Part shown: positions 47,186-64,000 of the stretch, piece after piece
Numbering within the stretch: the first letter of the stretch is position 1
Layout of the letters: every line of letters begins with the position of its first letter
From: Stappia taiwanensis
GTDB lineage: Bacteria; Pseudomonadota; Alphaproteobacteria; Rhizobiales; Stappiaceae
DNA: 64,000 nucleotides
Assembly (NCBI RefSeq): GCF_014635285.1
Contig: NZ_BMCR01000003.1
Location: 62,001 to 126,000 of the forward strand
Direction: 5' to 3'
Translations under genes and position numbers: made by a program
Notes under the pieces: generated by a model
Databases searched by the model: none
What the model saw: only the letters and a program-made list of their open reading frames with translations
Told to the model about the DNA's origin: nothing

Positions 47186-47488
47186 CGGCGTCATCCTGTG
47201 TGCTGCAACTGGCCGAAGGAGTACGTCATGAAGGGTTAATTGTCGGGAAACCGTCGGGCCAGACTGATCGTAGGTTGAACAAGCCGCTAACGCATCATCA
47301 TTGCCGCAAGCGTGAATGCAGCCCCGCCCCTTGGCGATGGGCATGTCAGATGCCTCTCTTTTGTCAAATATTAACCATGGTTTGCAAGGTTCGGTTGGTA
47401 ATCGGGTCAGGCCGCCACCGATTGGTCTTTACTGGCGCGGCAGCTCCGGGTCCGATCTGATCCCGAAGGAAGCAAGCGGTTCGCTTTG
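47186..47488. other. Divergent control region of the polysaccharide locus
   Basis: 303 nt between divergent glycosyltransferase and co-polymerase genes. It is less GC-rich than its surroundings and holds a TTGTCAAATATTAACC stretch with a 10-bp palindrome AACCATGGTT (47373-47382). It must contain both promoters, but no convincing -35/-10 pair or longer operator stands out. No gene is seen. Confidence 0.5.
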
Positions 47489-49597
47489 ATGGTCGATATC
47501 TACCAGGTTCCAGGCATCTTGAAAAAACGGATCGGCTGGCTGATCGCGTTGCCGGTGCTGTTCGTGGCGCTGGCCTTGGTCTTTCTGATCATGCAGACGC
47601 CGAAATACCGGGCGACCGCCGAATTGCTGATCGACCCGCAGGGGTTGCAGATCGTCGGCAACGACATCGTCGCCCGGGAAAACGGTGAGATGCTGGAACG
47701 GCTGGCGGTCGACAGCCAGGCCTACGTCATTTTGTCGAACACGGTGCTGGGCGACGTCGTCGACAAGCTCGGTCTCGTCAATGATCCGGCGATTGCCGGC
47801 AAGGGCGGAGGGCTTGTCTCCCGGCTGCTGGGGCGGGTGCCGGCGACGCTCACGCCGGAGGAAAAGCGTGGAGTGGCGATCATGGGGCTGCGGGAGCGGC
47901 TTCAGGTGGTCAAGGTCGAGAAATCGTTCGTTTTCAATATCGTGGCGAGCCATCCGGATCGCTTCAAGGCGGCGGCGATCGCCAATGAGGCGGCCCGGGC
48001 CTATCTCGATGAGGCGCGCCGGTCCCGCGCCGATGCTTCCTTGCGGGCCAGCATGGCCTTGCGGGTGCAGGCGGCGGACCTGCGCAAGCGGGTGGAGGCG
48101 GCCGAGGCGGAGGTGGAGAACTTCCGCGCGCAGAACGGCTTGATCAGCACCGGTCAGGCCGGGCTGGTCGCCGACCAGCAGCTTCAGGGGTTCAGCAGTC
48201 AGTTGACACAGGCACGGGTGGAGCTGGAGCGGGCCAAGAGCAACTATGATCTTGTCCGCAACCTGACCGTTGCCGACATCGAGGCGGGGGGTCTGCCGGC
48301 CAACCTTCAGACCACGACCCTTGGGACGCTCAGGGTCCAGTATGCGCGTGCCGCCGAGCAGGTGGCCCAGGCCTCCACCACCCTGGGGGCCAATCATCCG
48401 CAGATGCGCGAGTTGCGGTCGCAGCTTGAAAACGTCCGGCGCCAGATCGGCGAGGAATTGTCCCGAACCCGCCGCTCCATTCGCAGCGACTATCAGCGGG
48501 CGGAGGCGACCGTCGCCGCGCTCGGTGAGGAAGCGAACCGGCTGAAGAACACCAACGTGGATCAGAGCAAGGCGCAGATTCAGTTGCGCCAGCTCACCAG
48601 CGAGGCGGAAACCCTTGGCACGGTGTATCGCTCCTTCCTCAGCCGCGCCAAGGAGTTGGAGGAACAGCAGGATATCGATACCAGCAATTCCCGTGTGATC
48701 TCCCAGGCGGTCGCGCCGCTGAAACCGCTCGGCCCCTCCAAGGTGATGGTGCTTGCGGCCGCGGCGATGTTCGGCTTTGCCCTGGCTGCCAGCGCCAGTA
48801 TCGGCTGGGAAATGCTGGGCGGTCGGCTCGGTTCGGAAGGCGAACTGGTGGACCGGACCGGCGTGCCGCTGATCGCCAGCCTGCGGGCACCTGACGCGGT
48901 GTCTGCAGCCGGCGGCCCCCGGCGCGGTGGAGGGCTCTGGAAGCGGGGCGCTCGGGCCGAAGCGGAGGCAACGGCGCGCCAGATGGCCATCACCCGGATT
49001 GCCTATGCGCTGCGTCATGCCTTTGAGAACGAGCGGCCGGCCAATGTGCTGGTCTTGTCTTGCGGCGAGGAACCGGCCCTGGCCCCGCTCTCCCGAGCCA
49101 TTGCCACCGGCCTTTACGACATGGGTGAGGTTGTCCTCATCGCCCGGGCGGACCCGGGGGCGCCGGCAGGCACCCGGGACGCGGACCCGGACAAGGACGC
49201 GACACAGTCCCAGTCCAGTGGGCGTGAGCTGCGCACCCGCCTGTCCTCGCGCCGGCGCGGCGATCTGCAGACCGGTGAGGATTCGGCCGTTGCAGGCGCG
49301 TCACAGGCCAAGGCAGGGCGCCCACGCACTGCACCGCCCTTCAAGGTTGAACATCTCGATGGGCGCCCCCCCGAGAACGGCGTGCAATCGCTGGCGCGGG
49401 AAGGTCAGGAGTTCCTGGTGATCGATGGCGGGTCGGCTCTGGCCAGCCCTTATCTGCCGGTGCTGCTCGACTATGCCGATGCCATCGTGCTGGTGAGCGG
49501 CATCGGTGAGACCTCGCGGGAAGAGCTTGACCGCACCCTGGCCCTGCTGCAGCCGTGGCGCGACCGGATGATCGGCAATGTCGCCCTCGCGGCCTGA
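47489..49597 (+). CDS. Polysaccharide co-polymerase (Wzz-like) with degenerate BY-kinase domain
   Basis: A 702-residue chain-length determinant protein. Membrane helices lie near residues 17-36 (WLIALPVLFVALALVFLIM) and ~425-448. Between them is a long periplasmic coiled coil with the GNVR-like QTTTLGTLRVQYARAAEQV and a Wzz N-terminal domain (PKYRATAELLIDPQGLQIV). The C-terminal cytoplasmic domain (~residues 490-700) aligns in outline with tyrosine autokinases, but the Walker A (GxxGxGK[ST]) position reads LSCGEEPALAPLSRA and there is no Tyr-rich tail. It therefore probably lacks kinase activity, and length control would differ from Exo/Wzc systems. ATG 47489 is used. Confidence 0.85.
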   Translation: MVDIYQVPGILKKRIGWLIALPVLFVALALVFLIMQTPKYRATAELLIDPQGLQIVGNDIVARENGEMLERLAVDSQAYVILSNTVLGDVVDKLGLVNDPAIAGKGGGLVSRLLGRVPATLTPEEKRGVAIMGLRERLQVVKVEKSFVFNIVASHPDRFKAAAIANEAARAYLDEARRSRADASLRASMALRVQAADLRKRVEAAEAEVENFRAQNGLISTGQAGLVADQQLQGFSSQLTQARVELERAKSNYDLVRNLTVADIEAGGLPANLQTTTLGTLRVQYARAAEQVAQASTTLGANHPQMRELRSQLENVRRQIGEELSRTRRSIRSDYQRAEATVAALGEEANRLKNTNVDQSKAQIQLRQLTSEAETLGTVYRSFLSRAKELEEQQDIDTSNSRVISQAVAPLKPLGPSKVMVLAAAAMFGFALAASASIGWEMLGGRLGSEGELVDRTGVPLIASLRAPDAVSAAGGPRRGGGLWKRGARAEAEATARQMAITRIAYALRHAFENERPANVLVLSCGEEPALAPLSRAIATGLYDMGEVVLIARADPGAPAGTRDADPDKDATQSQSSGRELRTRLSSRRRGDLQTGEDSAVAGASQAKAGRPRTAPPFKVEHLDGRPPENGVQSLAREGQEFLVIDGGSALASPYLPVLLDYADAIVLVSGIGETSREELDRTLALLQPWRDRMIGNVALAA

Positions 49598-52118: not shown

Positions 52119-53204
52119 TCAGGCCTTCGCCATATGGGCGACAGGGTTGCCGCCTCGGGTTGCCATCGCCCGGAAGACGCCGTGGATGCCGCAAACCGCA
52201 TAACTCGCCCCATCCTCGGCATACTCGGCGTTCTGGCGCGGCAACAAGAACGGCTGGTCAAGATGCTGGGGGAAAAGGCACCCCGGCTCGGTGGTGACTG
52301 CGGAGCGGAAACCGAGGTCCCGGACGATATCCGCCTCGCGGCTCCCGGTCAGGGACGGGGCGCCATAGGGATAGGCGAAATGGGCGACCTCGCGCTGCAA
52401 GGTGCTCTCCAGAAAGCGTTTGTTGGCGGCGATGTCATCATGCACGCCCTCCGCCTCGATCAGCGACAGGGCGCGGTGGGTGGTGCCATGCGCGCCGATC
52501 TCGACGAGCGGATGCCGGTCGATCTCGATCAGTTCCTGCTCGTTGAGGGCGGCGTCATCGAGCAGCGCGGGAAGGGAAATGCCATGGGCGCTGAAGGTGT
52601 CGGCAAGCTGCTCCGTGCGGTGAAAGTCCTGCCAGACCCAGGCGGTGGCCCGGCGCAGCGCCGCCGTCTTGCTGGCAATATCCGGGCAGTGATAGCGCAC
52701 GCCCATCGGCTCGATGGTCACCTCGTCCCGTTCGAGGAACAGGTGACGCAGACCGAGCCACCAGGCATTGACCGTGCGGTTGACCATGTCGGTCGGCACA
52801 TAGATCGTCGCCGGCGCCCCGTGCCGCTCCATCACCGGAAGCGCCAGGTCGCGGTTCGAGCGATAGCCATCGTCGAAGGTAAGCACGGCGAAGGGATGTG
52901 CCTTCGGGTCGGCCAGGCGCTGCAAGGCCTCGTCCAGCGTGACGATGTCCCGGCCACTACGCCTCAGATAACCAAGGGTTGCGTCGAAGTCCTCGATGCG
53001 GCAGCCCTGATCGAGCTGGGCGACCGGATCTTCCGTGAAATCGTGATACATCAGAATGACGCCACGCCCGCCATAGATCGAGCCGACCAGCGACGAGGCA
53101 CCGCTGAAACGCAAGGCGCGCAGCCCGAGGGTCTTGATGCGCCGCTTCACCTTTTCTGCAAGGCTCAGGCTGGGGGTGACGCTGTCTTGCGAAACCGTGT
53201 CCAC
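52119..53204 (-). CDS. Polysaccharide deacetylase (NodB-homology)
   Basis: A 361-residue carbohydrate esterase family 4-like protein. Motif 1 is AVLTFDDGYRSN (catalytic and metal Asp) and motif 2 is EIGAHGTTHRAL (metal His pair), followed by VAHFAYPYG (the Arg/Pro-Tyr motif). It probably removes N- or O-acetyl groups from the exopolysaccharide or its precursors. GTG 53204 is chosen because AGGGAGA lies 5 nt upstream; an in-frame start at 53285 exists but has no such signal. It is followed by the GT4 gene in the same operon. Confidence 0.88.
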   Translation of the reverse strand: MDTVSQDSVTPSLSLAEKVKRRIKTLGLRALRFSGASSLVGSIYGGRGVILMYHDFTEDPVAQLDQGCRIEDFDATLGYLRRSGRDIVTLDEALQRLADPKAHPFAVLTFDDGYRSNRDLALPVMERHGAPATIYVPTDMVNRTVNAWWLGLRHLFLERDEVTIEPMGVRYHCPDIASKTAALRRATAWVWQDFHRTEQLADTFSAHGISLPALLDDAALNEQELIEIDRHPLVEIGAHGTTHRALSLIEAEGVHDDIAANKRFLESTLQREVAHFAYPYGAPSLTGSREADIVRDLGFRSAVTTEPGCLFPQHLDQPFLLPRQNAEYAEDGASYAVCGIHGVFRAMATRGGNPVAHMAKA

Positions 53205-53514
53205 TGCTCTCCCTTTCCGGCTGGCGCCATGCAGCTCGCGGCGAATGGTGCGGGTGTCATACGGGCGAAACGGTAGGCTGTGCACGTGAACAGCAGGTTG
53301 AGGCCGCGCGATCTCGCGGGCAGATCCTTGCGATGGTAAACAAACACTTGCACCGTGGGAGCCCGCTGCCCGCCGCCTGCCCGCCGCACTGAGGGCGGAA
53401 AGGTCTGGTTAATCTCAAATTGGCAAATCGCTCCGCAAGAGAGCTTGCACGTGCCGCAGATACCTCGGCTTAAGGTCTCGCAGCTATCGGTTGGTTCAGT
53501 GTTTGCAAAAAACG
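53205..53514. other. Divergent gap between deacetylase and GT4 genes
   Basis: 310 nt between divergent genes. Contains GC-rich direct repeats (CTGCCCGCCGC twice near 53368-53390) and an AT-richer part from about 53400 with GGTTAATCTCAAATTGGCAAATC, the likely promoter zone for the rightward genes. No RNA, operator dyad or gene is recognised. Confidence 0.5.
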
Positions 53515-54753
53515 ATGGAAAGTCCGGTCTCGATGCGCATCCTCATGCCCTGCGCCGCCTTCCCGCCTTTTGCGGATGGCGGTGGCCCAATCTCTTCGCT
53601 CCTGTTGGCGAAGATGCTGGTCGCGAGCGGTCATGACGTGCGGGTGGTGAATGTCGGCGATGACGACCGGCATGAGGTCTATGAAGGGGTTCCGGTCCAT
53701 CGGATCAAGAGCCCCAACATCTACTGGAACTACTACACGCCGCAGCCGGCGTGGCGGAAGATGGTCTGGCATGCGCTGGAAAACGGCAATCCGCGCGCCT
53801 ATCGCGCCATGCGCCGCGAGATCGCCGATTTCAAACCCGACATCATGCTGACGGTCAGCATCGAGAACATCAACGTTGCCTCCTGGGGCGCGGCGCGGGC
53901 CGCCGGGGTGCCGGTCGCGCATACGGTCTTCAGCGCTTTCATGATGTGCTGGAACGGTATCATGCAGAAGAAGGGGCGCAACTGCGCCGGCCAATGCGCC
54001 TCCTGCTATCTGACTTCGTTCGGGCGGCGCCAGTTCTCCCGGCTGGTCGATGCGGTGATCGGCGAATCGCGAGATATCGTGCAGCGTCATCTGGACGAGG
54101 GCTATTTCCCCAATGCCGCCAGCTATCGCGTGCCGGCGGTGATCGACGCGGTGCATGCGGTCGCGCCGCGCAAGTTTCCTGCGGATCGCCCGTTTCGGGT
54201 CGGTTTCTTTGGTGTGCAGACCCGTTTCAAGGGATTTGCCGTTTTGGCGGAGGCCGCGCGGGCGCTGGCCGGGAATGACAAGGTGGAATTCGTGATCGGA
54301 GGGACCGGTCGGGACGATTTTGCCGAGCAGACGCGGGCGATGTTCCCGCCGGAGAAAACCCGGTTCCTCGGCTGGACGACAGCGGAAGAGTTCTTTCCCG
54401 AGGTCGATGTGCTGGTCTATCCGACTATCGGTCGCGAGGCCTTCGGCCGGGCGACCATCGAGGCGTTTTCCCATGCGGTGCCGGTGATCTCCTCCAGCAT
54501 CGGCGGTGTCGCGGAAAACATCGCGCATGGGGAGAATGGCTTCCATGCCGCGGTGGGCGATCCCGAGGCCCTGAGATCCTGCATCGAACGACTGGTAAGC
54601 GGGCCAGAGCTTTACGAGAGGCTGTCGCGGGGCGCGTTGAAATCGGCTGGTGACTATCTGGAGCCGGTGGTGAGCCGGGCGCTGGAGACCGCCCTGTCGG
54701 AAACGCTGTCGCGCAAGGGGCAGCCGCAGGGCGCTCTGGAGGGAACGTCATGA
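53515..54753 (+). CDS. Glycosyltransferase family 4 with Cys motif
   Basis: A 412-residue GT-B glycosyltransferase: MRILMPCAAFPPFADGGGPISSLLLAKML at the N-terminus and EAFGRATIEAFSHAVPVISSSIGGVAENI as the E-x7-E sugar-nucleotide site. Unusually it holds a Cys cluster, NCAGQCASCYLTSFGR (C-x3-C-x2-C, about residues 162-168), as in GT4 proteins with a small metal or structural Cys site. Start: ATG 53515 or ATG 53533; neither has a strong ribosome site. The stop overlaps the flippase start (ATGA). Confidence 0.87.
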   Translation: MESPVSMRILMPCAAFPPFADGGGPISSLLLAKMLVASGHDVRVVNVGDDDRHEVYEGVPVHRIKSPNIYWNYYTPQPAWRKMVWHALENGNPRAYRAMRREIADFKPDIMLTVSIENINVASWGAARAAGVPVAHTVFSAFMMCWNGIMQKKGRNCAGQCASCYLTSFGRRQFSRLVDAVIGESRDIVQRHLDEGYFPNAASYRVPAVIDAVHAVAPRKFPADRPFRVGFFGVQTRFKGFAVLAEAARALAGNDKVEFVIGGTGRDDFAEQTRAMFPPEKTRFLGWTTAEEFFPEVDVLVYPTIGREAFGRATIEAFSHAVPVISSSIGGVAENIAHGENGFHAAVGDPEALRSCIERLVSGPELYERLSRGALKSAGDYLEPVVSRALETALSETLSRKGQPQGALEGTS

Positions 54754-56135
54754 TCGAGCGCTTGCGCGCGCTGGTGCTGCGGGCCGATGCCAGGCGTCTC
54801 TTCTGGTCGCTGTGCAGCCGCTTCGGCAGCACGGTCCTCAGTTTCGCGGTGCTGTTCGCCGCCAGCCATTCGCTCCAGACCAGCGAATACGGCCTTTACA
54901 TCTTTCTGTTTTCGGTGGGCACCTCGCTGGGGCTGATCTTCACGTTTGGTCAGCATATCCTGCTGGTTAAGCACTTCCGCCTGAAGGATCATCAGCGCGG
55001 CAAGACCAATCAGGCCCTGCTGCGGGTCAATGCCTTCTGGCTGGCAATCGGGTGTGGCGGGCAGTTGCTGGTCGCGCTTCTGTTGTTGCTGTCCCCCTGG
55101 GACCTGCCAAGCCCCTACCGGGAATTGCCGGTGGCGCTCCTGTTCGGCGCCATCTTCACCATGAGCGAGTATTTCCAGAACTACTTCCGCATCCATGGAC
55201 AGATTGTTCTGGCGCTGGTTCCGCGCGAAAACCTGTGGCGGATCGCCTCTGCCGTCTGTCTGCCGGCGGTGGCGTTTGCGGGGCTGCTGTCGAGCGGATC
55301 GGCGGCAACCGAGTTGGTGACCGGCCTTCTGTTTATCGTCACCGGCTATCAGACGGTGCGGTTCGTTCAGCAAGAGGGGCTGTGGTTCCTGCGCGAACCG
55401 CAGGTGGCGGCGGACCGGAAGACGCTGCGCATCTGGCGGCAGGAGAGTGCGAATTTCACCGCCAACGGCTTTTTCAACTCCGCGGCAGCGTATTTCGAAA
55501 CCATCCTGATCGGCGTGGCGATCGGTCTGGAGGCGGCGGCTTTTTATTTCGTCGCCTATCGCATTTCCATGCTTCTGACCCTGCCGGTGCTGGCCATCGA
55601 TACCGTGGGCGTGCCACTGATTTCGGCGCGCTTCCAGGAGGATGACAAGGTCGGCGCGCAGAAGGTGGTGGCGATGTTGTCCGCCGGAAGCTTCGCTCTG
55701 GCGCTGATCGGTGGCGTGTTCCTGTACTTCACCGGCCCGTTCGTGCTGCATCTGTTCGATCCGGCCTTTGTCGAGCATTCCGGTGTCTTGCTCATCCTCT
55801 GCCTGTCGGCGATCACCCATGCCTTCTTCGGGCCGGGCACCTGGGTGATCATGATCGGCGGCGGGGAGCGCTATCTCTTGATCCTGCGCTGCGTGGTGTT
55901 CGGCTTTTATGTGCTGTTGCTGTTCGGCCTCGGCAAATGGCTGGGGCTGACCGGTATCGCCATTGCCGGTTGGGCGCAGCTTCTCGCCGTGCATTTGTTC
56001 AGCCGCCGCTGGGTCATGCGGCGCTGGCAGGTGGACAACATGGCGACGGCGATCCTGGGCCTGCGCCGGCGACAGGCTGCGGAACGCAGCGCGACTGACC
56101 CCGTCGCCGTGGGGGAAGGCGATGCGCCGGTTTGA
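54750..56135 (+). CDS. Lipopolysaccharide/EPS flippase (Wzx-like, MOP superfamily)
   Basis: A 461-residue polytopic protein with about 12 predicted helices and the oligosaccharide-flippase opening (SRFGSTVLSFAVLFAASHSLQTSEYGLYIFLFSVGTSLGLIFTFG pattern). It would turn the lipid-linked repeat unit to the periplasm for polymerisation. The C-terminus is a basic and acidic cytoplasmic tail. It overlaps the GT4 gene by 4 nt and the glycanase gene by 14 nt, so the four genes from 53515 to 59042 are one operon. Confidence 0.85.
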   Translation: MIERLRALVLRADARRLFWSLCSRFGSTVLSFAVLFAASHSLQTSEYGLYIFLFSVGTSLGLIFTFGQHILLVKHFRLKDHQRGKTNQALLRVNAFWLAIGCGGQLLVALLLLLSPWDLPSPYRELPVALLFGAIFTMSEYFQNYFRIHGQIVLALVPRENLWRIASAVCLPAVAFAGLLSSGSAATELVTGLLFIVTGYQTVRFVQQEGLWFLREPQVAADRKTLRIWRQESANFTANGFFNSAAAYFETILIGVAIGLEAAAFYFVAYRISMLLTLPVLAIDTVGVPLISARFQEDDKVGAQKVVAMLSAGSFALALIGGVFLYFTGPFVLHLFDPAFVEHSGVLLILCLSAITHAFFGPGTWVIMIGGGERYLLILRCVVFGFYVLLLFGLGKWLGLTGIAIAGWAQLLAVHLFSRRWVMRRWQVDNMATAILGLRRRQAAERSATDPVAVGEGDAPV

Positions 56136-57234
56136 TACCCGCACCGCTCTCTCGGCGGCTGTCCGGAAAGCTGCGGCGGCTATGAGCACGGGGTTGGCCG
56201 CTGGACTGTCGCTGGCGCTTTCCGTCTTGCCCGTCTCGGCGGAGTGTCTGCGCGGTGCCAATGTCGCTGGGGGAGAGTTTGGCGAGCTGTCCGGGCAATA
56301 CGCGCACAGCTACATCTACCCCTCACGCGCCACCTTCGAATATCTGCGCCGCAAGGGAATGAACGTGGCGCGCTTGCCGTTCCGGTGGGAGCGGCTTCAG
56401 CCCGAACTGAACGCAGCCCTGTCCGAAGAAGAGTTCCAGCGGCTGGACGGAGCGGTGTCCGAGGCAACCGCGCTGGGGCTGACCGTCATTCTCGACCCGC
56501 ATAACTACGCGAAATACCGCGAGGAAATGATCGGCTCGGACAGTGTTCCGGTCTCTGCCTTCGCCGATTTCTGGGCCCGGCTCGCAGCCCGCTATGCGGG
56601 GCGGGAGGAGGTGGTGTTCCTGCTGATGAACGAGCCGGCGAACATCACGGCGGCCGATTGGCTGCCGGCGATCAATGCCGCGCTGGCGGCGATCCGCGGC
56701 AGCGGCGCGGACAATCTGGTGATGGTGCCGGGGACGATCTGGACGGGGGCGTCCCACTGGTTCGACCCTCAGGACGGTGGCTCGAATGCCGAGGTGCTGC
56801 GCAAGGTGGTCGACCCGCAAGAACGCTTCGTCTTCGATGTGCATCAGTATCTCGACGCGGATTTTTCCGGAACGAACGCCGGTTGCGAGCGGGCGGAGGA
56901 CGCGCTCGCGGCCCTGGAGCGCCTGACAGGCTGGCTGGAGGACACCGGCAATGCCGCGTTTCTGGGAGAGTTCGGCGGTCATGCCAGCGTTGAGTGCTAC
57001 AAGGGCTTGATCAGGATGGCCTCTCTGGTCAACAGCCGCCCGGATGTCTGGGCGGGCTGGGCCTATTGGGCCGCCGGCGACTGGTGGGGCGACTATCCGC
57101 TGTCGATCCAGCCGGGCGAAGATGGCGCCGACCGTCCGCAGATGGTGGCGATCGAAGGGTTGATCGAGCGGCGCAGCGCCGGGGAAAAAGCCTGCGCCGC
57201 TCTTGCGCGGCGCCACAGGGAGGGGGAGCGATGA
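56122..57234 (+). CDS. Secreted glycoside hydrolase family 5 (endoglucanase-like)
   Basis: A 370-residue enzyme with a signal peptide (to about residue 40, SVLPVSAEC). The GH5 fold is marked by MNVARLPFRWERLQPE, LDPHNYAKYRE, the acid/base Glu in FLLMNEPAN (E171), FDVHQYLD and the nucleophile Glu in LGEFGGHAS (E283). It hydrolyses beta-1,4- or related glucan links. In EPS loci such enzymes trim or release the polymer during export. Translation starts inside the flippase gene. No carbohydrate-binding module is attached. Confidence 0.92.
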   Translation: MRRFDTRTALSAAVRKAAAAMSTGLAAGLSLALSVLPVSAECLRGANVAGGEFGELSGQYAHSYIYPSRATFEYLRRKGMNVARLPFRWERLQPELNAALSEEEFQRLDGAVSEATALGLTVILDPHNYAKYREEMIGSDSVPVSAFADFWARLAARYAGREEVVFLLMNEPANITAADWLPAINAALAAIRGSGADNLVMVPGTIWTGASHWFDPQDGGSNAEVLRKVVDPQERFVFDVHQYLDADFSGTNAGCERAEDALAALERLTGWLEDTGNAAFLGEFGGHASVECYKGLIRMASLVNSRPDVWAGWAYWAAGDWWGDYPLSIQPGEDGADRPQMVAIEGLIERRSAGEKACAALARRHREGER

Positions 57235-59042
57235 CAAGCAAAGGGGCGCGGCTGGGGCGATTGACGCCGCTTGTCATCGAGGATTGCCCGGGGGTGCTCC
57301 ACGAAGCCGATGGCGATATCGGCGTCGTGGTCTGCGACGGCTGGGGTTATGAGGGGCTGTGCGCACGGCGAAGCTGGCGCATTCTCGCCGACCAGCTCGC
57401 TGAGGCCGGCTATCCGGTGCTGCGGTTCGACTGGCCGGGCATGGGCGATGCGCTTGCCGAGCCTGGGGACGTGACCACCCTTGCCCAACTGGAACGGTCG
57501 CTCGACCGGGCCTGCGCGGTTATGGCTGGGCGGGAAGGGATCCGCGCGGTGGCGCTGATCGGCCTCGGGCTGGGGGCGGCGCTGGCCGCGCGCCGCGCCG
57601 CAGCGCACCCGCAAGAGGTTGCCGGGCTGGTGCTGTTGGCGCCGCTGGTCAAGGGCAAGAGTTTCCTGCGCGAGGTGCAGGCACAGGCGTTGATGATTGG
57701 TCAGGTCACCGGCGTGCCACCGGAAACCGGCCCGGGGGAAGCGTTGTCGATTGCCGGTCTAGGCATGGCACAGGCGCTGGCGGACGAAATCCGCGCGCTC
57801 GATCTCTCCGGGCTCGACTTGCGTGAGGACATGCCCCGGCTGATCCTGGCGCGGGCGGGCAAGGCGGCGGAGGCGAAGCTGGCCGACCGATTGGCGGGTT
57901 CCCCCAGCGGTACGGCCGCGATCTTCGCCGGATACGACGATCTGATGATCGATCCGACCGGCTCGATCCCTCCTTTTCTCGACTTCGAACGGATCCTTGC
58001 CTGGTTCGCCGCGTCTCTGCCGCTCTCTGGCCAAGGAACACCGGCCAGAGGGGCAAAGGGCGCGACCAAGACCCGGCTGGAGACCGAAACCTTCCACGAG
58101 ACGCCTTGCGTTTTCGGGCCGAATGCCGGGCTGGTGGGGGTCTGGTGCGAACCGAGCGCTGGGCAGCATGGCCGGCCTGTGCTGTTTCTCAATGCCGGCG
58201 CGACGCCGCGAGCGGGCTGGGCGCGCGGCACGGCCGAGATCGCGCGGGCGCTGGCCGGGCGGGGGATCGCCTCCTTGCGCTTCGACGGTGCGGATTTCGG
58301 CGACAGCCGGCCGCATCCGCAAGGGCCGGCGATCATGCACTATCATGCGAACCAGCGTGCGGACCTCTCCGCCGCTCTCGATCTTCTGTGCGACCGCTAC
58401 GGATCCGGCGCTGTCGTGGTCGGCGGTTGCGGCGGCGCCTATCTGGCTCTCAATGGCGCGGTGGCCGACGATCGGATCGCCCATGTGATCGCGGTCAACC
58501 TGCAACGGTTTCTCTGGGATCCGCGCGACGATGTGGCTGAGGTGCTGCGCTATGGCCATGCGGCCCCGTCCGGATATGGTCGCAAGCTTCTGAGCCGGGA
58601 TGGCTGGCGAGCGCTGTTGCGTCGGCGGGCCGAGGTGCCGGCGTTGGCGCTTTATCTGACGCGAACGCTGTATCGGCGGGGGGAACGGCGGTTCGCGCCC
58701 TATCTCTTCGGCGTACTGCCCTTTTCCCGCCTCTATCGCCGGGTGCACCGCAATCTGTCGGTCTTACGCGACCGGCCCGTCCGGGTCGAACTGGTCTACA
58801 GCGAGGGCGATTCCGGCCTCGAACAGTTGCGCACCTTCTTCGGCAAGGACAGTCGCCGCCTTGGCGCCTATCCGAATATCGAAATGGTCCTGATTGCCGA
58901 TGCCGACCACAATCTCACGCCCCGGAAGGCTCGAGCCTTCCTGCTGGAGCGGGTTGCGGCAGCGGCGCTGGAGACGGCCGGCGGGGATCGCCGGCCGGCC
59001 CGTGCGAAGGATCGGGATGCGGCGGATCAGCCCGCGGCGTAG
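57231..59042 (+). CDS. Tandem alpha/beta-hydrolase protein
   Basis: A 603-residue protein with two alpha/beta-hydrolase-like domains (about 1-265 and 285-575), joined by a linker. Domain 1 has YPVLRFDWPGMGDALAEPGDV and, at the nucleophile elbow, GLGLGAAL (111-115), where the nucleophile is replaced by Gly. Domain 2 has IASLRFDGADFGDSR and GGCGGAYL (G398-x-C400-x-G), a possible Cys nucleophile, plus DADHNLTP as the His motif. The layout recalls exosortase-associated hydrolases of EPS loci, with one domain apparently inactive. It could acylate, deacylate or transfer a group on the polymer. It overlaps GH5 by 4 nt. Confidence 0.75.
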   Translation: MTSKGARLGRLTPLVIEDCPGVLHEADGDIGVVVCDGWGYEGLCARRSWRILADQLAEAGYPVLRFDWPGMGDALAEPGDVTTLAQLERSLDRACAVMAGREGIRAVALIGLGLGAALAARRAAAHPQEVAGLVLLAPLVKGKSFLREVQAQALMIGQVTGVPPETGPGEALSIAGLGMAQALADEIRALDLSGLDLREDMPRLILARAGKAAEAKLADRLAGSPSGTAAIFAGYDDLMIDPTGSIPPFLDFERILAWFAASLPLSGQGTPARGAKGATKTRLETETFHETPCVFGPNAGLVGVWCEPSAGQHGRPVLFLNAGATPRAGWARGTAEIARALAGRGIASLRFDGADFGDSRPHPQGPAIMHYHANQRADLSAALDLLCDRYGSGAVVVGGCGGAYLALNGAVADDRIAHVIAVNLQRFLWDPRDDVAEVLRYGHAAPSGYGRKLLSRDGWRALLRRRAEVPALALYLTRTLYRRGERRFAPYLFGVLPFSRLYRRVHRNLSVLRDRPVRVELVYSEGDSGLEQLRTFFGKDSRRLGAYPNIEMVLIADADHNLTPRKARAFLLERVAAAALETAGGDRRPARAKDRDAADQPAA

Positions 59043-61567: not shown

Positions 61568-62569
61568 TCAGGCGGCGCGTCCGGCTGCGTCGGCGGAAAG
61601 CGTGGGAAGTTTTTCTTCCAGCCCCTGCATCAGCCGATCCCAGGCGGCGGCCGGCGGCTGCAGGGCTTCCGTCAGGCCGGCAAAGCGCTTGCGCGCAAGC
61701 GCCCGCGCCAGCAGGAACTGGAGGCTCTTGCAGCTCTCGGCAATGCCGCGCGCCGCCTCCGCTTCAGCGGCAAGCTGCCCGTCCGGGAAAAGCCAGGCAA
61801 GATGCTCGCCCGCCAACTCGAAATTCGCCCCCGCCTGCCGCAAGGTGTTGAAGGCGTATTTGTGGAAGTCTTCGAACGGACGGTCCGCCAATGCCTCGAT
61901 GTCGGCGGCAAAGCGCGCCGCATAGGCGGTGAACGGGTTGGTGTCCGGCCGGCGCCGAAAATGCTCGGTGAGCAGACCCATGGCGAGGGGGCGCAGCTCC
62001 GCAGCCGGGGCTGTCTCCGCCGGCAGCTTGGAGAATTCGGTATAGGGCAGGAAGGGCAGGGGCTGGGCGAAGGCGCCGCGTTGGAACACCCCGTCGAAGT
62101 CGTCCCCCTCAAGCGAGAACAGCCCGCCATTGTGGAAATAGGTCATCCGGCGTTCGGCGGGATCGAGCGCGGTGATCGCCACCGTCGTCTTGCCATGTTC
62201 GCTGCGATAGCCAACCCCATGGGTGTCGGGCAGGAAATAGCTGTCGACCTCGACCAGGCACAGCCGGCCACGGGCGATCTGCTCCGCCACATGGTTCTCG
62301 GTCCGGTCGTAAATCGCCAGTTCCTGTGCCCGGATGCCGTAAAGGGTTTCCAGATCCTCCAGCGGAACCTTGAAGAAGGTGAACTGGTCCCCTTCGAAAT
62401 CCTGCGTCAGGGTGAAGCCGAGCATCGCCTCGGGCGTTTGCCCGAGCGCGTGCAGCACCTCGATCCACAGATCGACATAGCAGTTGGTTTCCGGCCAGAT
62501 GCGTGTCGCCGCATGCAGGGCGTGCGGCTGGTAGCCATCAGGGCGAAGGGCGGCAAGGCGGGTGATCAT
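61568..62569 (-). CDS. DUF1839 family protein
   Basis: About 333 residues with the DUF1839 signature near the N-terminus: TRIWPETNCYVDLWIEVLHALGQTPEAML and LTQDFEGDQFTFFKVPLEDLETLYGI, then LCLVEVDSYFLPDT and KTTVAITALD. The conserved Cys in ETNCYVDLW and the His/Asp residues make an enzyme likely, but no function is known to me. It lies directly after the carrier-protein ligase. ATG 62569 is chosen; a GTG at 62593 that overlaps the ligase stop is equally possible. As aminoacyl transfer from a carrier protein needs an acceptor enzyme, this protein is a candidate for that step (inference). Confidence 0.85.
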   Translation of the reverse strand: MITRLAALRPDGYQPHALHAATRIWPETNCYVDLWIEVLHALGQTPEAMLGFTLTQDFEGDQFTFFKVPLEDLETLYGIRAQELAIYDRTENHVAEQIARGRLCLVEVDSYFLPDTHGVGYRSEHGKTTVAITALDPAERRMTYFHNGGLFSLEGDDFDGVFQRGAFAQPLPFLPYTEFSKLPAETAPAAELRPLAMGLLTEHFRRRPDTNPFTAYAARFAADIEALADRPFEDFHKYAFNTLRQAGANFELAGEHLAWLFPDGQLAAEAEAARGIAESCKSLQFLLARALARKRFAGLTEALQPPAAAWDRLMQGLEEKLPTLSADAAGRAA

Positions 62570-62583
62570 CGCGAGTGTGTCCG

Positions 62584-63507
62584 TTATCCCCACAGCGCCT
62601 TGCGCACCGGCTCGGGCCAGTCGGCGGTGTCGAGCCCATGGCGGGCGAAAAGGGCGAGGGCGATCCGCTCCAGGCCGAAGCCGACACAGGCGGTGTGGGC
62701 GGTCTCGCCGTTGACGGTCTTCAGGCCCCAGGTCTGGCCGAAATGGTCCTGATGGTAGTTGAAGCTGAGGCAGGCGGTCTTGGTGGTGGCCGAGGTCACC
62801 GGGATCAACAGCTCGAACTTCAGCTTCTGTTCGCGCTGGTTGTTGCCGAGCATCTTGCCGGCGCGGCCGAAGAACGGATCATTGGCCGTGTCCAACTCTA
62901 CATCAAGACCAACGGCAGAGACCAGCGTGCTGCCGCGCTCCATCCAGTCGCTGCGGAAGGCCATGACGTCGTCCGGCGTGCCGATGCGCACGAACTCGCG
63001 CATCCGGAACAGCTGCATCCGCGCCGGGTCCTTGGAAGGCTCGTGACGGAAGCAATAGGACTGCAGGTCGAAAAGACCGCCGCCTTCGGGCAGCGGGCCG
63101 CGCTTGGCGATGGTCGGGTAGAGCGGATAGCAGGCCGCCGGCGTCAGCACCACGTCGGTCGCTTCCTGCTTGCCGGTCCAGTCGTCACCTTCCGCCATGC
63201 ACTGCAGCAGGTTGACGTGGTCGAGTTCGCAGCCGCAGAAGCTGTGCACCGTACCGGCGAGCTGCGGGAAGCTCTTCATGTAGCCGGAGCCTTCGAAATG
63301 GGCCCGGTTCATGCCCGGCGGAAAGCGGATCACCTCCGCCGTGGCCTCGGGCGCATGGCGGGCGATCAGGGCTTCAAACCGGGCGATCACGTCTTCGAAG
63401 GCACCGCTGCGGCCATAAAGGCCGTCAACGCCGGTGTCGATCAGCAGGCCGGCGTCGAACAGCCGGTCAAGCAAATTGGTCTGCATGTCCATGTCGGTAC
63501 CCTTCAC
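62584..63507 (-). CDS. Amino acid:[carrier protein] ligase (class II aaRS homologue)
   Basis: A 307-residue truncated seryl-tRNA-synthetase-like catalytic core without a tRNA-binding arm. Motif 2 is YCFRHEPS...RMREFVRIG and motif 3 is [12 protein letters not shown]. Cys126 (TPAACYPLY), Glu171 (RMREFV) and Cys274 ([11 protein letters not shown]) are positioned like the zinc ligands of the archaeal-type SerRS and of the Bradyrhizobium ligase Bll0957 (Cys131/Glu176/Cys279 as I recall), all shifted by five. Known members activate glycine or alanine and load it on the phosphopantetheine of a small carrier protein instead of a tRNA. GTG 63507 overlaps the upstream stop (GTGA); ATG 63492 is an alternative. 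No carrier-protein gene is in the window. Confidence 0.9.
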
Positions 63508-64000
63508 GCCAAAAGGCTGGTGTCTTGCTTGTGGATCAGCAGCATGGTCGACGTATTGCCGAGAATGCGGTCGTTGGAGATCATCAACTGGGCGGAATGG
63601 GCATCGCGCAGATGCCGCCCCAAGCTATAGGGCGTGCCGTTCTTGTAGCCCAGGATGCCGCAGATCAGCATGCAATGGTTGATGATCGTCAGGATGGTCT
63701 GCGAACTGGCGATCTTGAGATTGTTCATCGCCACCGCAAAGCTCATGGCGGACAGCTTGTCCTCGTCGCCCCTCACCGCCTCATATTGCGTGAGGGCGGC
63801 AATGATGCTGGCCTTGACCCCCTGCAAGAGGGATGAGGCCTCGGCAACGCGCAAGGCGCCGGGCGGCATTGCCTCGGGCGAGCGGCGCGCGGCGGCGCGT
63901 ACGAAGGCCTGGGCCCGGGCGAAGGCATCGGCGGCGATGCCGTACCAGACGGCACTCCACAGAATATGCGCATGGGCGAGCATCGACTGGGCGGCGATCT
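63504..64000 (-). CDS. Acyl-CoA-dehydrogenase-like protein (N-terminus beyond right edge)
   Basis: The C-terminal 165 residues of a larger protein; the frame is open to position 64000. The helical pattern [27 protein letters not shown], then [60 protein letters not shown], matches the C-terminal domain of acyl-CoA dehydrogenases ([20 protein letters not shown] being the flavin-adjacent segment). In the ligase context it would oxidise the aminoacyl group on the carrier protein, not a CoA ester (inference). The stop overlaps the ligase start by 4 nt. Confidence 0.8.

Follow-up and report, generated by a model that had tools for sequence, protein, structure and literature searches.

A conserved five-gene cassette in Stappia taiwanensis with DUF1839 as a candidate transferase for carrier-bound amino acids

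We analysed a 64,000-nucleotide stretch of Stappia taiwanensis DNA (the window; G000:C3:62001-126000, part of a 746,525-base contig) and used contig sequence beyond its right-hand end as well. Five genes follow one another there on the minus strand, adjacent ones overlapping or almost touching, and encode, in order, a carrier protein, a flavoprotein resembling acyl-CoA dehydrogenases (ACAD-like), an amino acid:carrier-protein ligase, a protein of family DUF1839 and a glycosidase of family GH2 (Table 1). The original prediction, made from the window alone, had described an operon at positions 61,568 to 64,000; the ACAD-like gene, the ligase and DUF1839 are indeed found there, with GH2 directly downstream and outside that interval. 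The DUF1839 protein of the window shares 95% identity, over the best segment, with the copy from a Stappia indica contig.

Table 1. Genes of the cassette and its surroundings (window positions unless another coordinate system is given)
Feature	Position	Strand	Remarks
GH2 beta-mannosidase-like glycosidase, 831 aa	59027..61522	-	PF22666, PF17753; last cassette gene, directly downstream of DUF1839
DUF1839 (PF08893), 341 aa, candidate Cys38 aminoacyltransferase	61568..62593	-	Pfam 429.9 bits, cut-off 22.5
Amino acid:carrier-protein ligase, 307 aa, seryl-tRNA-synthetase-like class II	62584..63507	-	NF005479 512.7 bits, cut-off 357
ACAD-like flavoprotein gene, 3' part in window	63504..64000	-	whole frame 63504-64688 (G000:C3:125504-126688), crossing window end
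Carrier protein, 85 aa	64685-64942 (G000:C3:126685-126942; L002:8686-8943)	-	wholly past window end
Tandem alpha/beta-hydrolase	57213..59042	+	frame opens at 56994; opposite strand, converges with GH2
Wzz/GNVR chain-length protein	47486-49597	+	
Polysaccharide deacetylase	52119-53285	-	
GT4 glycosyltransferase	53491-54753	+	
Wzx-type flippase	54750-56135	+	
GH5	56119-57234	+	
Thiolase	L002:9258-10469	+	diverging from cassette, just upstream of carrier gene

The cassette is not peculiar to Stappia. Our phylum sample of 397 genomes contains PF08893 in 20 genomes and the ligase in 44 (33 over the NF005479 cut-off), and in every one of the 20 DUF1839-positive genomes the five genes are complete, in order and on one strand. 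The ligase is present in 20/20 DUF1839 genomes as against 44/397 overall, a co-occurrence far above chance (Fisher p about 7e-22, shared descent uncorrected). All five genes also stand in order in 79 of 80 named contigs, the sole exception being cut by a contig end; these contigs represent the best 80 of at least 561 relatives and come mostly from Rhizobium and its relatives, and hence are not 80 independent events. The joint occurrence in other genomes that the original prediction had proposed to look for is thus borne out. With start codons as chosen by our script, the junctions in the 20 cassette loci range from -4 to +83 nt (carrier/ACAD-like), -4 to +133 nt (ACAD-like/ligase), -37 to +38 nt (ligase/DUF1839) and -4 to +136 nt (DUF1839/GH2).

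Ligase loci were retrieved with wide flanks for 31 of the 33 matches over the cut-off and for 9 of the 12 below it. Thirteen genomes have an over-cut-off ligase and lack DUF1839, and the 11 loci retrieved from them lack GH2 as well; an ACAD-like gene nevertheless adjoins the ligase in all 11, and a divergent carrier is present in nine. These loci are presumably of the Bradyrhizobium type. Because the ACAD-like gene stays with the ligase where DUF1839 and GH2 are missing, the ligase and the ACAD-like protein look like a core to which DUF1839 and GH2 resemble an added module. The same retention suggests that the substrate of the ACAD-like protein is probably a carrier-bound amino acid.

Judged from their sequences, the identities of the ligase and the carrier are not in doubt. 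The ligase is matched by the NCBIfam family NF005479, 'amino acid--[acyl-carrier-protein] ligase', and its residues 13-304 align with the ligase of 4h2w (E 1.2e-100) and with Bll0957 of 3mey (E 2.5e-96). C126, E171 and C274, which we take to be the zinc ligands, in agreement with the 4h2w/Bll0957 alignment, are conserved together with motif 2 (R154, E156) and motif 3 (R281) in 40/40 ligases compared. The class II motifs and three zinc-ligand positions noted in the original prediction are therefore kept, and loss of the active site, which it had named as a point on which its idea could fail, is not seen in this alignment of sequences (a structural alignment had been envisaged). Distant homologues below the NF005479 cut-off (L084-L090, L093, L094) retain the compared active-site residues too; BLAST found no relatives of the carrier, ACAD-like protein, DUF1839 or GH2 beside these nine ligase loci.

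The carrier, which had been predicted to lie next to the dehydrogenase gene, begins 685 bases past the window end, abuts the ACAD-like gene and has its phosphopantetheine serine, Ser37, within GLSSF. It scores 37.4 bits against PF00550 (cut-off 20.8) and 113 against NF005480 (cut-off 72), and among proteins of solved structure it is closest to the aminoacyl carrier protein of 4h2w and to Atu2571 (2jq4), E 1.2e-24. The serine is conserved in 20/20 cassettes and in 8/8 compared carriers from DUF1839-less loci. The Stappia genome has three ACPS-domain matches, and these proteins could prime the carrier. Taken together, the sequences make loading of the carrier by the ligase nearly certain. Amino acid:carrier-protein ligases are known to load amino acids onto carriers, with structures available since about 2010, and Mocibob et al. 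(2010) reportedly worked with the Bradyrhizobium ligase Bll0957 and the Agrobacterium carrier Atu2571, the biochemistry covering only the loading reaction. We found no biological role for these ligases in the literature searched.

What might happen to the loaded amino acid is suggested chiefly by DUF1839. Cys38, Thr136/137 and His154 are conserved in all 80 named copies; in the phylum sample Cys38 is found in 20 of 22 copies, and His154 is invariant across all 102 (matches covering fewer than 200 profile positions were dropped from these motif counts and from the genus counts below). In the two exceptions, position 38 is Arg or Gln and Thr137 is replaced by Cys; both are located in cassettes, and both genomes hold a second, intact DUF1839, a copy counting as intact when it has Cys38, His154 and a Thr or Ser at each of positions 136 and 137. 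Genus g181 allowed a closer comparison: DUF1839 occurs in 58 of its 60 genomes, of which 56 were examined (G437 and G447, with fragmented matches, were left out), and these genomes are related, hence not 56 independent events. An intact DUF1839 was present in 43/43 genomes whose stretch read contained a ligase and in 1/13 whose stretch did not. Eight of the 43 have a single, ligase-adjacent intact copy, 30 have an intact second copy beside a degenerate ligase-adjacent one, and the remaining five have an intact copy away from the ligase and a degenerate second copy. The degenerate ligase-adjacent copies mostly carry Arg or Gln at 38, while that of G451 (L282) has Cys38 and is altered at 137.

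This covariation is what would be expected if the Cys/Thr-Ser/His site were needed when the ligase pathway runs. Since the motif persists together with the ligase, we dropped the reading of DUF1839 as a mere companion of the ligase. Strict genome-wide linkage of the two genes, which holds in the phylum sample (20/20), fails in g181, where 12 of the 18 genomes of one checked subset have DUF1839 and no ligase match. An intact DUF1839 lies away from the ligase in L215, L219, L223, L274 and L284 (inverted beside GH2 in the first three), suggesting that co-transcription need not be required. Lone motif-altered copies with no ligase in the stretch were seen in L225, L226, L228, L229, L233-L235, L238, L241 and L243, and those of L233, L234 and L243 are near frames that by eye resemble response regulators and a Wzc-like protein; such copies could be relics or could have a second function.

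DUF1839 has previously been described as a papain-like protein whose site reads C-(T/S)-H (PMC10318531). That is the only paper in the literature searched in which we met DUF1839 by name, and its main text contains none of the terms CcbD, LmbD, CtaG, celesticetin, azinomycin and closthioamide. Alignments were built from selected locus rows (18 for DUF1839, 22 for the ACAD-like protein, 16 for GH2), and a structure model from the 18 DUF1839 sequences reached a predicted local distance difference test (pLDDT) score of 90.3 and a predicted template modelling (pTM) score of 0.89. Foldseek against the PDB returned 19 matches with E <= 0.001, the next match having E 0.16. The 19 consist of three chains of the AziU3/U2 complex, ranked first (E 4.6e-7 to 1.1e-6), eight of CtaG and eight of CcbD (E 1.6e-6 to 2.1e-4, probability 1.00), spanning 318-365 alignment columns at template modelling (TM) scores of 0.51-0.64. 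CcbD and LmbD use a Cys thioester to couple an amino acid held on a carrier to an amino-octose amine, the amino acid being proline for CcbD, whose mechanism is of the ping-pong type (PMC12945683), and CtaG is a proposed peptidyl transferase between two peptidyl carrier proteins (PMC6772006).

The original prediction had listed DUF1839 without assigning it a role. Fold and comparative genetics now make it the best candidate for the transfer enzyme: the model is built like CcbD and CtaG and probably works alike, and DUF1839 is not a proven member of their group because sequence similarity to CcbD, CtaG and AziU3/U2 is undetectable. Amide-forming transfer appears fairly likely, our confidence being somewhat reduced by the fact that the first three places among the fold matches go to AziU3/U2 chains. 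We met no link between DUF1839 and CcbD, CtaG or AziU3/U2 in the literature searched, which left most subscription journals outside its coverage. Alternatively, DUF1839 could free the oxidised amino acid, as a thioesterase or hydrolase, or it could serve in editing. Proteases and amidases are numerous in the papain-like superfamily (PMC10318531), and the C-T/S-H site published for DUF1839 is unlike the triads described for CcbD and CtaG; at the same time, 16 of the 19 strong fold matches are CcbD or CtaG, no description among the 19 names a peptidase or thioesterase, and hydrolysis alone would leave GH2 without an evident role. We therefore consider a hydrolase improbable.

The ACAD-like protein shows the ACAD fold and Pfam domains, and it differs from ordinary ACADs at several positions, among them the two that hold the catalytic base in the ACAD family. 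At the catalytic-Glu position, Ile is found in 31/31 ACAD-like proteins of cassette or core, compared with Glu in 6/10 reference ACADs from the Stappia genome. The helix-G Glu, which two of the four references lacking the C-terminal Glu possess, occurs in 0/31, and the aromatic residue preceding the flavin Ser/Thr, present in 10/10 references, is likewise found in 0/31. The top PDB sequence matches are two KijD3 entries (E 2e-15), closely followed by glutaryl-CoA dehydrogenase (3e-14), with DnmZ and nitrososynthase 3mxl further down the list; we take KijD3 and DnmZ to be amino-sugar N-oxygenases. These features point, tentatively and with somewhat less than an even chance, to monooxygenation or amine oxidation of the carrier-bound amino acid.

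The original prediction had also foreseen oxidation of the loaded amino acid, in a dehydro or imino form, and the dehydro part of it fares poorly. An alpha,beta-dehydrogenase yielding a dehydroamino-acyl thioester would accord with the ACAD fold and Pfam domains, with a FadE16-type family as best NCBIfam match and with a weak match to the prolyl-carrier-protein dehydrogenase RedW. Such a reaction is very unlikely, however, because Ile replaces Glu in 31/31, the helix-G Glu and the aromatic residue before the flavin Ser are missing from all 31, and glycine, having no beta carbon, could not undergo it at all. With Glu missing at both positions, we set classical dehydrogenation aside.

The fifth protein, GH2, has beta-mannosidases as its best PDB relatives (5n6u, 2vjx, 2je8). 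E418 and E499 are invariant in 16/16 sequences, at the expected catalytic places; E499 aligns with a Glu of 5n6u, and E418 with a Cys, which we take to be an active-site variant, the acid/base and nucleophile roles being assumed. None of the five cassette proteins is strongly hydrophobic over its first 40 residues in any of the 20 loci (the threshold was ours, with the first 60 residues of the neighbouring GH5, assumed to be secreted, as control), so that GH2, having no signal peptide, is probably cytosolic.

Polysaccharide genes adjoin the cassette both in the window and in loci from three families; family f69, for example, has WcaJ-type and Wzc genes in its flank. A scan of 59 of 174 flanking frames, on the downstream side of 14 of 16 picked named loci, found GT4-type glycosyltransferases (7), alpha/beta-hydrolases (7), GumK (4) and Wzx-type flippases (4) to be the commonest families. 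A polysaccharide deacetylase, seen in the window and in L055, would supply free amines. For Agrobacterium, where the PDB match 2jq4 identifies the carrier as Atu2571, Atu2574 is DUF1839 by our own equation, and a few locus tags from these genes sit Atu2577, 2582, 2583, 2590 and 2592, which belong to a cluster that 'likely' makes an uncharacterised glycan, seemingly from UDP-N-acetylglucosamine (UDP-GlcNAc), and that is reported to be needed for pyocyanin tolerance in Agrobacterium tumefaciens (PMC9790009, which cites Perry and Newman, 2019, on phenazine tolerance).

This context makes a sugar amine an evenly balanced guess for the acceptor. The acceptor could instead be an amine of an envelope lipid or protein, as its nature is not readable from sequence and as lipids and elongation factor P (EF-P) are known to be aminoacylated by systems with synthetase relatives (PMC2922099); the conserved GH2 and the frequent polysaccharide neighbours favour a glycan, and we regard the lipid or protein acceptor as quite improbable. 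A stronger competitor, though still an unlikely one, is a small diffusible metabolite, with DUF1839 joining the oxidised amino acid to a free amine or second building block and the polysaccharide genes being mere neighbours. The fold relatives CcbD and CtaG are natural-product enzymes, flanks vary among families, 7/20 cassette loci have an ABC-transporter gene no farther than about 6 kb away, and the DUF1839-less loci keep the ACAD-like gene and ligase (11/11) and the carrier (9/11) without any recognised recurring polysaccharide neighbour. What speaks for a glycan rather than a metabolite is the recurrence of polysaccharide genes noted above and the presence of GH2 in all 20 cassette loci and all 80 named loci.

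Other neighbours are less telling. The commonest accessory neighbour is the tandem alpha/beta-hydrolase (12/20 cassette loci), which weakly resembles the exosortase-A system hydrolases TIGR03100/TIGR03101, under their cut-offs. It faces GH2 in the window and follows it in the same direction in L056 and L059; in L057, L062 and L067 the match covers the C-terminal half of a ~1,100-residue frame, and in L057 that frame starts with a Wzx-type flippase domain. A relative of the thiolase is clustered with the cassette in L055 only, among the 20 loci. Upstream of the cassette, loci of family f4 (for example L058:12404-14526(-)) have EpmA, found in 8/20 loci, and a lysine 2,3-aminomutase-like gene, found in 7/20. 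We rejected EF-P modification as a functional lead, these neighbours being specific to f4; the presence of a further amino acid activation system beside the cassette is probably a coincidence of position.

From gene content, linkage, conserved residues and fold similarity, we infer the chemical steps, the acceptor and the role of GH2 as follows. The ligase would adenylate a small amino acid, presumably glycine or alanine by analogy with characterised relatives, and load it onto the phosphopantetheine of the carrier. The ACAD-fold flavoprotein would then oxidise the aminoacyl-S-carrier, monooxygenation or amine oxidation being likelier than alpha,beta-dehydrogenation. Papain-like DUF1839 would move the acyl group from the carrier to Cys38 and then onto an amine, in the manner of CcbD/LmbD. 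The most likely acceptor is an amino sugar in an exopolysaccharide, or in another glycan produced by neighbouring genes, and the probably cytosolic GH2 may trim or recycle the sugar substrate or product. The scheme of loading, oxidation and transfer put forward in the original prediction survives in outline, with loading well supported, transfer backed by fold and comparative genetics, and its 'dehydro' oxidation unlikely. For the route as a whole, from a probably oxidised aminoacyl-S-carrier through the DUF1839 Cys to an amine, perhaps on an exopolysaccharide sugar, we would put the chances just short of even.

A number of observations weigh against this proposal. For DUF1839, a profile search of PDB sequences up to E 10 retrieved no CcbD, CtaG or AziU3/U2, its only match being a protein named as a cysteine protease (E 0.42); TM scores of about 0.55 with root mean square deviations of 5.5-7.2 A indicate a common architecture, not the same reaction; and the published triad order is C-T/S-H, compared with Cys-His-Glu in CcbD and Cys-His-Asp in CtaG (the latter from variant titles). 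Thirty genomes have a ligase-adjacent DUF1839 without the full motif, so those copies are probably not acting as proposed. G435 has an intact DUF1839 and no ligase match, in G429 the ligase lies elsewhere and the sole DUF1839 is degenerate, and G418 has two ligases and no DUF1839. For the ACAD-like protein, Foldseek places the model equally close to ordinary acyl-CoA dehydrogenases and to oxygenases, and the best NCBIfam match is to the dehydrogenase-named family FadE16 (E 2e-28, far under the cut-off). Polysaccharide context is frequent and not universal: no family exceeds 7 among the 59 downstream frames, and the singly scanned frames of Agrobacterium rubi L173 and Ochrobactrum L098 encode an ABC transporter, a beta-lactamase-fold protein, a cyclase-type protein and MutL. 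Within the literature searched, no paper shows an aminoacylated polysaccharide from such strains, and none tests a role for the ACAD-like protein, DUF1839 or GH2.

If the proposal is true, oxidised aminoacyl groups would join the surface-glycan decorations of rhizobia and their relatives, and the five proteins would form a compact enzyme set for joining amino acids to amino sugars. To the loading reaction the cassette adds the remainder of a candidate pathway, with DUF1839 and its Cys38 as a named candidate for transfer, grounds for doubting classical dehydrogenation and a likely class of acceptor. In its most specific form, the cassette would be a counterpart of lincosamide synthetase driven by a synthetase and free of nonribosomal peptide synthetases, placing oxidised (for example N-hydroxylated) glycyl or alanyl groups on exopolysaccharide amino sugars via the carrier and DUF1839. 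Surface glycans would then be aminoacylated by a route encoded in the genome, and the purpose of the amino acid:carrier-protein ligases would be explained; this more detailed version is speculative and, on balance, unlikely.

The original prediction had offered the pathway as a candidate undescribed one. This does not hold: in a note in proof, Aravind, de Souza and Iyer (2010) described this neighbourhood, with a seryl-tRNA-synthetase paralogue linked to an acyl carrier protein, a redox enzyme and an uncharacterised conserved protein, and predicted that an amide would be formed with an amino sugar of the surface (PMC2922099). Because that paper had the linkage and a similar guess in 2010, the idea is largely a rediscovery. 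To our knowledge, the fold argument, the covariation of motif and ligase, the loss of the Glu, the neighbourhood counts and the completed locus are new relative to the papers found. Two published observations provide hints only: bll0957 and bll0958, the latter annotated as an acyl-CoA dehydrogenase, each change 3.0-fold in a phaR mutant of Bradyrhizobium (PMC10888616), and Atu2573 has been called a co-expression hub gene (PMC11941606).

Several known systems come close to the cassette. The 2010 prediction for Atu2574 concerns the same neighbourhood and suggests both sugar-amine ligation and monooxygenation; unlike our analysis, the passage does not argue from the fold or active site of Atu2574 (PMC2922099). 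Bll0957 and Atu2571 are clear homologues of the Stappia ligase and carrier and share the compared active-site residues, and to these the Stappia cassette adds candidates for oxidation, transfer and glycosidase action in one unit. Lincosamide synthetase (LmbC/CcbC, the carrier LmbN/CcbZ, and LmbD/CcbD) brings together, as proposed for the cassette, a carrier-bound amino acid and an amino sugar by means of a Cys enzyme of similar fold; it differs in activating the amino acid with an adenylation domain and in making an antibiotic, and DUF1839 has no detectable sequence similarity to its Cys enzyme. Butirosin biosynthesis, whose carrier is BtrI, offers a further parallel. There, BtrH transfers an acyl group from a carrier protein to an aminoglycoside and has a papain-like N domain (PMC10318531), although its structure is not among the 50 fold matches listed for DUF1839, and the pathway includes a monooxygenase, BtrO (PMC2922099).

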